Shown here piece by piece: positions 14,191 through 34,529 of a stretch of 35,407 bases of DNA; position 1 is the stretch's first letter, and the number at the start of each line of letters is the position of its first letter. The stretch covers positions 1 to 35,407 of the forward strand of contig JADZFK010000137.1 of NCBI GenBank assembly GCA_020849945.1, in the 5' to 3' direction. Source of the stretch: Pirellulales bacterium. Lineage in GTDB: Bacteria > Planctomycetota > Planctomycetia > Pirellulales > Lacipirellulaceae. Position numbers and translations under genes: made by a program. The notes beneath the pieces were generated by a model. It saw nothing but the letters and a program-made list of their open reading frames with translations, was not told where the DNA came from and ran no database searches.

Positions 14191-14213
14191 GATCGGGAGA
14201 TGCTCGACGAAAG

Positions 14214-14296
14214 CGGAGGGCACGGGACTCGAACCCGCAACCGGTTTCCCGGCACCACATTTCCAGTGTGGCCGCTAGCCAATTCGCTTACCCTCC
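14214..14296 (-). tRNA. tRNA-Ser (anticodon GGA)
   Basis: A class II tRNA can be folded. The acceptor is GGAGGGT against GCCCTCC with discriminator G. The anticodon stem CCACA/TGTGG encloses the loop CTGGAAA, so the anticodon is GGA, reading UCC/UCU. A long variable arm pairs GCCGG with CCGGT, and the T arm is GCGGG TTCGAGT CCCGT. The D stem is weak (about two pairs). The 3' CCA is not encoded and must be added. Confidence 0.93.
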
Positions 14297-14344
14297 GAGG
14301 CGGTGGCCAATCCCTTATCTTAACGGCATTCTGGCGGGTGTCTA

Positions 14345-14521
14345 TTAGCAGTCTGTTGAAAAACGCCATCGAGGCGTTTTTCAACCTCGCCAAGCTCGGA
14401 CGGGCACCGCGCGCAGCGTGGTCGGCACCTCGCGGCTCGCAAATCAGCGACTTTAGGTCGCTGATTTGACATGGCATGCATGCCATGACGCAGCCCGTTA
14501 ACTTTTTCAACGGACTGTTAG
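14345..14521. mobile_element. 177-bp structured MITE-like repeat, copy 1 (family M)
   Basis: The ends TTAGCAGTCTGTTGAAAAA (14345-14363) and the reverse complement of 14503-14521 match at 16 of 19 bases. Inside, on the minus strand in order: a CCGTTGA...TTAACGG stem, the perfect palindrome CATGGCATGCATGCCATG, a 12-bp stem (14440-14451 with 14457-14468), a GC-rich region, and a 13-bp stem GTTGAAAAACGCC. A second copy lies inverted at 34393-34529. An open frame runs through it on the minus strand but is not conserved beyond about 20 codons. Confidence 0.85.
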
Positions 14522-18621: not shown

Positions 18622-18964
18622 AGTGTGCAAAAGCGTTTCACTTATTGATGACAGTTTGCCGTGCATCTCGCATGGCAAGTACGTGATTTACTTCCGCCAA
18701 ACGGAATCCCATGTTGAAGTTGTTCGTGTATTACATGGGTCACACGAGATGGAGGGGCTACTCTAGGTTTACGCATTTCATTGAGGCCATGGACCATGAT
18801 GTTGCGAAGAACATCGCACTTATTGAATTAACCAAGCTGCGACAAGGCACTGTAAGCTTTACGGTTCACTTCGCGCATAAGATTGCTTGTCTTGCCACAA
18901 TGTAGATCAACAATCGACGCGTTAATGCATGGCCCTAAGCATCTCACCAAGGATTACATTACTT
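18622..18964. other. AT-richer gene-free stretch before the first lyase gene
   Basis: The base composition is visibly less GC-rich than the neighbouring genes. A 64-codon frame at 18711-18905 has no recognisable motif and no good ribosome site, so I do not call it. It may be a long untranslated leader or a relic of lost DNA. Confidence 0.4.
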
Positions 18965-20926
18965 ATGGTAGACATGATTTCTAGAACTCGCCTTTCGCTC
19001 ATTGTCTTTGGATGGAGTGCGACTTCAATATGTGCCTCGTGTGCTTTTGCGGTGCCGGCCAGCTTTCCGCCGCAGGCGACGTTGGCGGAGGTGGAGCAGC
19101 GTGTTCGGGCGTGCTCGCCCGAGCATCCGCGGTTGCTTGCCAGTCGCGAGCAGTTGACCGGGTTGGCAGGGTCCTTGGAGAAGGATCCGCTGCGGCGCGA
19201 GCTGGCGACCGCACTCATTGAGGAAGCGGATCGAGTCTTGAAGGTACCGCCCATCGAGCGCGTACTCATCGGCCGGCGGCTGCTAGATAAGTCGCGTACC
19301 TGCGTCTCGCGTGTGTTGGTTCTTTCCTTGGCGTATTACTTAACGGGTGAAGAACGCTACGTGGATCGTTGTCAGCAAGAGATGCTCGCGGCAGCACGCT
19401 TCACGGATTGGAATCCCGATCATTTTCTCGATACAGCCGAGATGACCTTTGCACTTGGAGTTGGGTACGATTGGCTTTACAGCCAGTTGGATGAGCCCGC
19501 GCGGAATGAAATCCGCGGAGCGATTGTTCAGAAGGGCGTTCAGCTGCCTCGCAAGAACCCGAACTATTCTTGGATTCGGAGAGAGAATAACTGGGGGCAG
19601 GTGTGTCATGGAGGAATCACGGTTGGCTCGCTCGCCGTATTAGAAGATGAACCGGAACTGGCCGCCTATACTGTCCACAATGCCGTGCATAACGTGGTGC
19701 ATGCGATGAACGCAATCGCGCCGGCTGGCAGCTATCCGGAAGGACCTTCCTATTGGTCGTACGGTACCAGCTACAATGTATTCTTAATCGCCGCACTGGA
19801 GAGTTCGTTGGGGACCTGTTTTGGTCTCGACCAAGCGCCGGGGTTCGACAAGACCGGCGGTTATCTTACGCTCGTAAGAGGCCCCTCGGGGCGGTATTTC
19901 AACTATGCCGATGGAAGTGCGGATCGCAGGGTCGAACCAATCCGGATGTGGCTCGCAACACGTTACCAACGTTCCGATTGGCTTCAAGAGGAGCGAACCT
20001 ACTTGGAACATATCCTGAGCGTACGGAAGGACGACGGGGGCGGGAGCGCTTGGCGCCAGTTGGCCCTGGCCATGTTGTGGATGGAATCCGCGAGCGAAGC
20101 GGCAAGCCCTGCCATGCCCTTGCATTGGCAAAGCAAAGGCAAAGTACCGATTGCCATTCATCGCAGTTCATGGCAAGACCCGAATGCCACGTTCGTGGGG
20201 GTAAAGGCGGGCGCTCCGCGAGCCAACCATGGCCACATGGATATTGGCTCCTTTGTGCTCGATAGCGACGGCGTGCGGTGGGCGATCGACCTGGGGCCCG
20301 AGCCGTATCATCCTATTGAAGCCCGGGGAATGGCATTGTTCGATAGCAAACAAAAATCCGACCGCTGGACGATCTTCCGCCTCAACAATTTTAGCCATAA
20401 TACGCTAGTCATCGAGGATCAACTGCAGGTGGCCGCCGGCAACGCGACGATCGAATCCTTTTCCGATAATCCGCGGCGGCCGTTCACGATTGTTGATATG
20501 AGCAGCGTTTACGAAGGGCAAGTGACGTCAGCACGGCGCGGGTTCACGCTGTTGCCATCGCGCGAAGTATTGATCCAAGACGAACTCACGGGCCTCAAGC
20601 CGGGCAGCCGCGTGCGATGGGGGATGTTGACAGCCGGGGTGCCCGAGGGGTTGGGGGCCTCGCGCATCGTGCTTCGCCAAAGCAAGAAGCAGCTAACCCT
20701 TGCGGCGCTGGTGCCGACCATGGCTGAGTGGACCGAGATCGACACCGCCAAACCTCGCCACGAATGGGATTCGCCGAACCACAAGACACGGATGGTGGCG
20801 TTCGAGACCATCGCGCCGCCCTCGGGCAAACTTACGTTGGCAGTGGTTGCCACACCAGGATCATGCACCAAGCCGAGCGGCGAACGCATGCCGTTTCGGC
20901 CACTTGCCAAGTGGGCAGCCCATTGA
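18965..20926 (+). CDS. Secreted heparinase II/III-like polysaccharide lyase
   Basis: 653 residues from the ATG at 18965, chosen because AAGGA lies 11 bases upstream and a signal peptide begins here (hydrophobic to about residue 28, ending CAFA before VPASF). An ATG at 18929 in frame would add 12 residues and spoil the signal. The first about 370 residues are the (alpha/alpha) toroid of alginate- and heparin-lyase type families, with RENNWGQVCHGG and PEGPSYWSYGTSYN, likely active-site Asn, His and Tyr. The C-terminal half is the heparinase II/III beta-sandwich (NHGHMDIGSFVLDSDGVRWAIDLG, FSHNTLVI). It would cut uronic-acid polysaccharides in the periplasm by beta-elimination; the substrate cannot be told. 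Confidence 0.85.
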   Translation: MVDMISRTRLSLIVFGWSATSICASCAFAVPASFPPQATLAEVEQRVRACSPEHPRLLASREQLTGLAGSLEKDPLRRELATALIEEADRVLKVPPIERVLIGRRLLDKSRTCVSRVLVLSLAYYLTGEERYVDRCQQEMLAAARFTDWNPDHFLDTAEMTFALGVGYDWLYSQLDEPARNEIRGAIVQKGVQLPRKNPNYSWIRRENNWGQVCHGGITVGSLAVLEDEPELAAYTVHNAVHNVVHAMNAIAPAGSYPEGPSYWSYGTSYNVFLIAALESSLGTCFGLDQAPGFDKTGGYLTLVRGPSGRYFNYADGSADRRVEPIRMWLATRYQRSDWLQEERTYLEHILSVRKDDGGGSAWRQLALAMLWMESASEAASPAMPLHWQSKGKVPIAIHRSSWQDPNATFVGVKAGAPRANHGHMDIGSFVLDSDGVRWAIDLGPEPYHPIEARGMALFDSKQKSDRWTIFRLNNFSHNTLVIEDQLQVAAGNATIESFSDNPRRPFTIVDMSSVYEGQVTSARRGFTLLPSREVLIQDELTGLKPGSRVRWGMLTAGVPEGLGASRIVLRQSKKQLTLAALVPTMAEWTEIDTAKPRHEWDSPNHKTRMVAFETIAPPSGKLTLAVVATPGSCTKPSGERMPFRPLAKWAAH

Positions 20927-30976: not shown

Positions 30977-31094
30977 GTCATCTACCGTCCGTGCCGCTTT
31001 CAAGCCATACTATCCGATACGCAGCCGTCGGTAATAAGTTGCGTCGTTGGCGTGGTGCGGTTTCTACTACGCTCTACCGTCTAGGTTTGTTGCC

Positions 31095-33092
31095 ATGATT
31101 GAACTTGCTTCTACGTTGTTGGTCCTCCTTGCGTTGCAAGTCGAAACATCGCCCTCCGACCTTCGTTCAACGCGGCCTGCGGATATCCTCGACAAGCTCG
31201 ACTTAGACGGGCCCGGCTTGGAGGTGGCGCGGTCGGCGGCGAAGAAGCAAGATACGCCGGCTGCGCTCGGCGCGCTGCGAGACCATTATCGCCAACGATT
31301 TCCACGTGTTGCCGCAAAGGGCGAGCTCGATCCAAAGCGCCGTGCCGCCGCCGACAGGATGGTGAACCACGTCTACCAATGGGGCCCCTACGAGCCGTTC
31401 GATTACGGGCCAAACATGAACTGGGAGGCCGATCCGCGAGGCGACATCGAATGGGTCGCGGCCCTCTATCGTTTTTATTGGGCAACCGATCTGGCCGAAG
31501 CCTACGAGGCGACCCGCGATGAGAAATACGCCCGCGCCTTTGTCGAATTGACGACCGACTGGATTCAAAAGCACCCGCTGGAAAACTATTCCAAGAGGCA
31601 TCCGGTGTACAAGCGTTGGCGCGGATTCGCCTGGCTCGATATTCAGACGGGCATTCGCGCCAATTCGCTTTGCCATGCTGTTCAGGTGTTCGTCCATAGC
31701 GAGTCGTTCACACCCGAGTTTCTCGGAATCTTGTTGGCCAGCCTGCACGACCATCAGGTCAAGACAGAACGGTTGCCGATGAACGCCATCCACAACAAGG
31801 CGATTTTCGAACAACGAGGGTTTATCAACATTGCGGTGACTTTTCCCGAATTCCGAGATTCACAGCGATGGCTGGAAATGGCCATCGGGCGAACCCGGGA
31901 GACGCTCGTCGGCCAGGTCACGAAGGATGGCGTCCAACGCGAGTGGACTTGGGGATACCATCTCGCCGTGCTGCGCGACGCCGCGGACATCGTTCAATGG
32001 ATGGAATCGCGCAAAGTGCCAATTCCGGCAGACTATCGCGAACGTGTCCGCGCGATGTATGACTACGTGTTTTTCATGGCAACACCAGAACTAGCTGGCC
32101 CCATGTTCGGTGACGCCGGGCGTTATGGCACGCATGGTCAGGACCGTTCCCAATGGCCCCTCTATTCGCCGCTGATGGCAGCATCGGAGCGGTTCCGCGA
32201 CCCGAAGTATGCCGCACTGGCTCGGCTCGATGTGGCGAATCTGCCCAAAGTGGGCAGCCATGCGTTTCCCGAGGCCGGCATGTACGTAATGCGCAATGAA
32301 TGGGGGCCCGAGCAGATCTACTTTGCCATGCACTGTTCGCCACGCGGGATTAGCGCCCACGATCAACCAGACAACGGAACTTTCGAACTGCGTGCCTTCG
32401 GCCGCTGGTTGATGCCTGACACCGGTTACTTCACTTATGGGCATGATCCGGCAAGCCGCGCGTGGCATCGCCGCACGGCCGTTCATCAAACCTTAACGCT
32501 CGACGAAGCCGACTCCAAGATCGATGGCAGGCACTTGTTGTGGAAACAGGTACCTGAGGGCGACGTGCTGACCGTCGAGAACGCATCCTACGAGAACCTC
32601 ATTCATCGGCGCACTGCGTGGTTCGTGAACCGGTCGTTCTTCGTCTTGCTCGATGAGGCGATTGGCGATGCGGAAGGATCGCTGGACATGCATTTCCAAC
32701 TGGCACCAAGCGAGATCCGCCGCGGGACAGGCCCGCACACCTCGCAAGTCACCACCTGCTTCGACGACGCGAACGTATTGATTCACTGCGAACCTCGTGC
32801 CTCGCTTTCCATTCGCGAGGAGGACGGATGGCACGCCTGGGACTACGGGAAACGCGAGCCACGCAAAGCCGTGGCCTTTCGGCACAGCGACCAAGCGCCG
32901 GCCGCCTTCCTCACGGTCCTTTACCCCTATCGCGGCACAACGCCGCCCGAGGTAACGGCAAACATGCCGGTCGGCCACGCCGTTGGTGCCGATCGGGTCG
33001 AGCTTTCCGTGCGTACCGATGGAAGAACGTGGCGCCTAGGCCGTGATCTTCAGTCGAAGCAAGCGTGGTGCCGCCCTGCCGACTCACCGTGA
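31095..33092 (+). CDS. Secreted heparinase II/III family polysaccharide lyase (PL12-like)
   Basis: 665 residues from the ATG at 31095; the frame is open to a TTG at 31047, but the hydrophobic start MIELASTLLVLLALQ is a better secretion signal. The N-terminal toroid has NWEADPRGDIEWVAALYRFYW, NAIHNKAIFEQRGFINIA (likely active-site Asn/His), and WTWGYHLAVL (likely Tyr). The beta-sandwich half has ISAHDQPDNGTFELRAFGRW and a His before DQPDN typical of the heparinase II/III fold. The layout fits heparinase III-like PL12 enzymes, cutting sulfated or uronic polysaccharides. It differs clearly from the lyase at 18965-20926. Planctomycetes commonly degrade algal polysaccharides. Confidence 0.87.
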   Translation: MIELASTLLVLLALQVETSPSDLRSTRPADILDKLDLDGPGLEVARSAAKKQDTPAALGALRDHYRQRFPRVAAKGELDPKRRAAADRMVNHVYQWGPYEPFDYGPNMNWEADPRGDIEWVAALYRFYWATDLAEAYEATRDEKYARAFVELTTDWIQKHPLENYSKRHPVYKRWRGFAWLDIQTGIRANSLCHAVQVFVHSESFTPEFLGILLASLHDHQVKTERLPMNAIHNKAIFEQRGFINIAVTFPEFRDSQRWLEMAIGRTRETLVGQVTKDGVQREWTWGYHLAVLRDAADIVQWMESRKVPIPADYRERVRAMYDYVFFMATPELAGPMFGDAGRYGTHGQDRSQWPLYSPLMAASERFRDPKYAALARLDVANLPKVGSHAFPEAGMYVMRNEWGPEQIYFAMHCSPRGISAHDQPDNGTFELRAFGRWLMPDTGYFTYGHDPASRAWHRRTAVHQTLTLDEADSKIDGRHLLWKQVPEGDVLTVENASYENLIHRRTAWFVNRSFFVLLDEAIGDAEGSLDMHFQLAPSEIRRGTGPHTSQVTTCFDDANVLIHCEPRASLSIREEDGWHAWDYGKREPRKAVAFRHSDQAPAAFLTVLYPYRGTTPPEVTANMPVGHAVGADRVELSVRTDGRTWRLGRDLQSKQAWCRPADSP

Positions 33093-34392: not shown

Positions 34393-34529
34393 CCTAACAA
34401 CCCGTTGAAAAAGTCAACGGGCTGCGTCATGGCATGGATGCCATGCCACAACAGCGACCCAAGTCGCTGTTGTGCGAACCGCGAGGAGCCGACCACGCTG
34501 CGCGCGGTGCCCGTCCGAGCTGGGCGAGG
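34393..34529. mobile_element. Structured MITE-like repeat, copy 2 (family M), 3' end lost
   Basis: Aligns to the reverse complement of 14345-14521 over about 137 bp, starting CCTAACAACCCGTTGAAAAA. It keeps stem 1 (CCCGTTGA/TCAACGGG), the CATGGCAT palindrome, and the 12-bp stem at 34447-34458/34463-34474, which differs from copy 1 by two compensatory pair changes. The last 13-bp stem and terminal repeat of copy 1 are not present. Confidence 0.85.

Follow-up and report, generated by a model that had tools for sequence, protein, structure and literature searches.

A gene-less MITE of Pirellulales with covarying hairpins and the termini of an IS1182-like group

Introduction

Bacterial MITEs are short, non-coding and intergenic elements that are mobilised in trans by IS elements, are present in several copies per genome, and are transcribed into stable stem-loops (PMC10969869). 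Small interspersed repeats with predicted RNA folds have also been described in Streptococcus pneumoniae, i.e. BOX, RUP and SPRITE, which are over-represented between convergent genes (PMC3049150). Of these, SPRITE resembles a Rho-independent terminator and is located at the 3' ends of genes, and its ends consist only of AAAA/TTTT, with no known duplication (PMC3049150). The REP/REPIN sequences with their RAYT transposases are 20-40 bp long, carry GTAG or CGTC tags, and are known in Planctomycetes too (PMC3733652).

The repeat described here was followed up from two copies in the window, by which we mean the whole analysed stretch of 35,407 nucleotides of a Pirellulales genome (order identified from named records). 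It is a gene-less MITE with definable boundaries and with termini shared with an IS group; the kind of element is known, but the family, with its likely IS1182-like partner, is new. With the described bacterial MITEs it has in common its short length, lack of coding sequence, terminal inverted repeats, target duplications, intergenic location, presence in several copies per genome, stem-loops and a likely IS partner, whereas it differs from them in spanning an order and in stems that covary almost completely (PMC10969869). The IS1182-like nature of the partner is a link not mentioned in PMC10969869. In layout and placement the repeat most resembles SPRITE (PMC3049150), although the Pirellulales MITE has an unrelated host and ends different from those of BOX, RUP and SPRITE. 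In contrast to SPRITE, its ends are clear, it is flanked by YTAR duplications, and it contains several hairpins. The REP/REPIN sequences are likewise palindromic, dispersed and intergenic (PMC3733652); identity with them was rejected, because the MITE is longer (149 bp), differs in its ends, has terminal inverted repeats and 4-bp duplications, and has a likely partner of the DDE type. In comparison to the IS1182 family, the terminal bases and target duplications match those of the IS1182-like group of the order, but the MITE lacks a transposase gene and its interior is no piece of the IS. Searches of the literature on this repeat, on IS1182 MITEs and on Pirellulales repeats returned no description of the family.

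Results

Two copies of the element in the window

The sequence-only reading, which preceded this analysis, had proposed a structured dispersed repeat at 14345-14521. A repeat is located there, but this interval includes the TTAG duplications, and the element proper, copy 1, covers positions 14349-14517 of the plus strand as a complete 169-bp long form (covariance model score 135.5 bits). The target-site duplications TTAG are at 14345-14348 on the left and at 14518-14521 on the right, as read from the sequence and in line with the YTAR or NTAN direct repeats that flank other copies; copy 1 thus reads TTAG, CAGTCTGTTGAAAAA...TTTTTCAACGGACTG, TTAG. Its terminal inverted repeats, which had been recognised from the start, are 18 nt long and 89% complementary.

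Between the duplications, five hairpins follow one another on the plus strand. P1 (14355-14385, GTTGAAAAACGCC/GGCGTTTTTCAAC) is a perfect stem of 13 bp, formed by the left terminal inverted repeat and an inverted copy of the same, with 91-93% of cells paired among 103 copies. The linker CTCGCCAAG (14386-14394), near-invariant over the order, leads to the P2 region (14394-14438), which in this long form exceeds that of the 149-bp standard form by about 20 nt. P3 (14440-14468), with arms CAAATCAGCGAC at 14440-14451 and GTCGCTGATTTG at 14457-14468, has a terminator-like layout of A-tract, GC stem and T-tract, and shows two-sided changes in 11 of its 12 pairs among the 103 copies. Two-sided changes were likewise found in all 7 model pairs of P4 (14470-14487, CATGGCATG/CATGCCATG) and in 10 of the 11 pairs of P5 (14491-14517), which combines the right terminal inverted repeat with its inverted copy. 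On the minus strand the P5 stem contains two G.U pairs, in agreement with the earlier remark that the differences in one of the stems are wobble-compatible on one strand. A palindrome search of copy 1 independently returned three internal perfect palindromes besides the terminal repeat.

Copy 2 (34398-34529, minus strand, 84.4 bits) is followed by TTAG at 34394-34397. The same series of stems had been ascribed to both copies; P3 is indeed kept in copy 2, but P1 and the left terminus are missing. The P3 arms of copy 2 on the minus strand are CACAACAGCGAC (34474-34463) and GTCGCTGTTGTG (34458-34447). Both copies and every base quoted for them are present in the window, and the covariation reported for the 12-bp stem (A:T to C:G and T:A to A:T, with both stems perfect) is correct. 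Fold z-scores of copy 1 were -6.5 for the plus and -7.2 for the minus strand, with none of 200 shuffles as stable; these values and the about 18 substantial copies in the same genome (a 4.09 Mb draft of 265 contigs, with several copies cut by contig ends) demonstrate that the repeat is not due to chance.

Copy 1 is located upstream of a tRNA-Ser(GGA) gene (14213-14296, minus strand), at a distance of about 50 bp, and immediately upstream of the promoter-like sequence TAGACA-16-TAAGAT of this gene (minus strand, in the region 14317-14348), so that the insertion may insulate or alter this putative promoter. The gene for the DNA polymerase III alpha subunit is farther off on the other side of copy 1, and the start of a lipase-like gene adjoins copy 2. 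The window also contains two heparinase II/III-like genes (polysaccharide lyases) at 18929-20926 and 31047-33092.

Distribution and architecture of the family

A covariance model built from 16 copies detected the family in 36 of the 297 sampled genomes of the order Pirellulales, representing 22 of 122 genera, and in one genome only outside the order in a phylum sample of 392 genomes. That genome (G474) has two lower-scoring copies, L217 and L221, for which horizontal transfer is possible. A DNA search of 60 relatives revealed diverged copies in other Pirellulales families with the architecture unchanged, i.e. YTAR, P1, linker CTCGCCAAG, P2, linker CGGCTCGC, P3 (for example CAAAACAGCGAC/GTCGCTGTTTTG), P4 (for example CATGGCA/TGCCATG), P5 (CAGCCCGTTGA/TCAACGGGCTG) and YTAR. 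The linkers CTCGCCAAG and GGCTCGC are near-invariant, and the termini CAGCCYGTTGA...TCAACRGGCTG are the same throughout the order. The standard length is 149 bp, with no coding capacity, and in the own genome this form coexists with the long form with about 20 extra nt in P2, to which copy 1 belongs.

Two diverged copies are located less than 800 bp apart in genome G039 (L032:1504-1653 and L032:2270-2434). Three sites with CTGTTGAAAAA in the own genome (L060, L067 and L070) were rejected as members of the family. The plasmid and phage collections searched gave no match to the element, and Rfam gave nothing at gathering scores, with only a tRNA and weak chance matches by E-value.

Target duplications and a putative mover

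Perfect 4-bp direct repeats flank 46 of 102 copies, the commonest being CTAG, CTAA, TTAG and CTAT; the calling tolerated a shift of the ends of up to 3 bases, and a few of the 46 may be chance. The form NTAN accounts for 37 of them. These repeats, and the existence of IS1182-like elements that have the termini and duplications of the MITE, support the initial suggestion of a mobile element.

The transposase was traced from two loci of the own genome, L058 and L071, which have an IS end in common. L071 (positions 1-410, contig C227) is a truncated IS1182-like element at a contig end, its terminus being that of the MITE, and it encodes a transposase N-terminus that is cut by the contig end. Another contig of this genome, C21, carries a second relative, diverged and frame-broken. 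Many genomes of relatives contain complete IS elements, about 1.42-1.54 kb long, which have the termini CAGCCCGTTGA...TCAACGGGCTG and are flanked on both sides by CTAG, TTAG or CTAA (YTAR). Several IS copies in genome G014 have the same end base, and repeated copies have identical ends. The best NCBIfam model for the transposases was IS1182 (NF033551) with 187-194 bits, below the cut-off of 270, and they are therefore named IS1182-like; their domains are DUF772 and DDE_Tnp_1.

MITE and IS occur together more often than expected: the IS was present in 9 of the 36 genomes with the MITE and in 20 of the 261 that lack it (p=0.004 when the truncated IS of the own genome is counted, p=0.011 otherwise). 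In the sampled data, a close IS of the IS1182-like group is found in only about one quarter of the MITE-bearing genomes. The likeness between MITE and IS is limited to the terminal bases, and the interior of the MITE is no deletion product of any IS seen. An empty site was sought in two congeners and not found, the regions being not syntenic; one congener, which lacks the element, shares the tRNA-Ser flank of copy 1 but is not syntenic on the opposite side.

IS701 elements have a YTAR target. For this reason IS701 was considered as the mover and then dropped, as the IS elements with matching ends are IS1182-like. Having both the ends of the MITE and the YTAR duplications, the IS1182-like elements are the likely movers, and their transposases probably move the MITE in trans, a view well supported by the shared ends and target sites.

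Covariation of the hairpins

The check that had been suggested (collection of copies, a covariance model, and comparison of covariation with the phylogeny) was carried out, and the covariation is strong and exceeds tree-based neutral simulation. In the alignment of 103 copies from 25 genomes, which was fitted to the structure model, 89.3% of pair cells form standard pairs and two-sided changes occur in 50 of 55 pairs, with a covariation score of 0.309 compared to 0.100+/-0.004 for shuffled data and at most 0.05 with partners slid. A MAFFT alignment of 16 copies, not fitted to the model, agrees (0.216 vs 0.099). Parsimony on a FastTree tree assigned 78 double changes to terminal and 79 to internal branches. 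The corresponding means in site-independent neutral simulation on the same tree were 15 and 5, and the highest values in 20 runs were 23 and 9, respectively. Stems P2-P4 have no conserved sequence; the outer pairs of P3 are A on the left and T on the right in 85-95 of the 103 copies, and its inner pairs flip freely. This order-wide, nearly complete covariation of the hairpins and the difference between young and old lineages described below set the family apart.

Selection or template-switch repair

The pairing depends on the age of the copies. Over terminal branches of increasing length, single and double changes numbered 77:2, 69:7, 109:33, 25:20 and 10:16, and on internal branches 63:79. 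Inserted copies decay while spreading lineages keep the pairing, which favours selection.

The most serious alternative accepts the same MITE and regards its fold as functionless, with polymerase template switching in the palindromes copying one arm onto the other. Template switching is a documented mechanism that can create and maintain hairpins (PMC8794818). In agreement with it, double changes fall on adjacent pairs more often than expected (25 vs 9.1+/-2.8), and private two-sided transversions occur in single copies of the own genome, L008 (copy 2) and L009. A double change of transversion type cannot pass through a G.U pair, and such changes make up 86 of the 157. On the other hand, double changes are scarce in the youngest copies (2, as opposed to 77 single ones), and of the 9 that occur on branches under 0.1, 8 are of transition types; from these figures, one-step repair is not common. 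Strand-symmetric repair would, moreover, not predict the mismatch bias on internal branches, where A.C (on the plus strand, equal to G.U on the minus strand) outnumbers G.T by 30:8 (p=0.0005), although P5 drives this bias. On terminal branches the ratio is 96:79 (Fisher p=0.006 for the contrast between internal and terminal branches), and on internal branches without P1 and P5 it is 12:6 (p=0.24). Taken together, we find template switching an unlikely account of the family, if one that deserves attention.

The claim that the folding matters thus gains support from the covariation without being proven, as template-switch repair could give two-sided changes too; the evidence favours selection on folding over such repair, short of proof, and we give selection roughly twice the weight. 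An RNA fold of one particular strand had been hinted at as well. The minus-strand wobble excess points in this direction and is only suggestive. The comparison of fold energies between the strands was rejected as strand evidence, since the difference (-7.0 observed vs -4.5 shuffled) is mostly base composition, which accounts for much or most of the better fold energy of the minus strand. A reading in which the success of the MITE depends on the RNA fold of one strand is tentative, and we lean against it: selection among spreading lineages would keep the five-hairpin structure over the order while dead copies decay, and the minus-strand transcript would have a specific task, for example to insulate host genes against the insertion.

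Selection could also act on the hairpins as DNA, in single-stranded or cruciform form or as multiple transposase sites in terminal and subterminal repeats, being needed for efficient transposition. P1 and P5 each consist of a terminal repeat beside its own inverted copy, and selection in spreading lineages only would suit a requirement of transposition. However, the autonomous IS has no such hairpins beyond its outermost terminal bases, so that the transposase seems not to need them, and P2-P4 offer no conserved stem sequence for binding; we judge this version improbable. A duplicated stand-alone regulatory RNA gene instead of a transposon, to which the strong order-wide covariation and the near-invariant linkers would be suited, is very improbable in view of the terminal repeats, the 4-bp duplications, the IS group with the same ends, the many copies per genome at unrelated places with a patchy distribution, the lack of any Rfam match, and a search inside copy 1 that found no promoter-like site.

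Placement relative to genes

Most insertions are at the 3' ends of genes. They were located between convergent gene pairs in 39 cases and between divergent pairs in 11 (p=9e-5), two classes which on a circular chromosome have the same frequency; the gene calls were simple longest ORFs and not curated. There was no orientation bias in co-directional contexts (22 vs 18). The duplicated YTAR contained the stop codon of an ORF (minimum 100 codons) in 36 of 102 copies, more often than the 20% found for control YTAR sites (p=0.002). As the YTAR carries the stop codon, an insertion can leave the stop of the gene intact. At several loci, for example L135, L165, L172 and L033, the YTAR is at the gene stop and the element lands exactly at the gene end.

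P1 to a degree resembles P3, in that the order in both is A-tract, GC-rich stem, T-tract whichever strand is read. The scan for consensus terminators called neither P1 nor P3, which is explained by their T-tracts being inside the stem. The layout is that of a bidirectional intrinsic terminator, and the two hairpins are terminator-like. Our best guess is that the hairpins act as terminator or 3'-end structures that would make the insertion harmless, although the convergent placement may reflect mere tolerance.

Discussion

The combined reading that we prefer has four parts. IS1182-like transposases would act in trans on the ends of the MITE and insert it at YTAR with a 4-bp duplication. The pairing of the hairpins would be kept by selection in the lineages that multiply, when single inserted copies decay. 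Upon being read through, the hairpins would act as bidirectional terminator-like or 3'-end structures, and harmless insertion at the 3' ends of genes would make the element successful. As a whole, i.e. a MITE with an IS1182-like mover, selected hairpins and a terminator-like role, we consider this explanation fairly probable.

The family is a large natural data set, with 103 copies from 25 genomes aligned here and more obtainable. It allows dead and spreading copies of one set of hairpins to be set side by side, which makes the cause of compensatory change, selection or template switching, testable. For the planctomycetes it represents a widespread repeat, for which no name was found, now linked to an IS1182-like group with YTAR duplications, a link that aids genome annotation.
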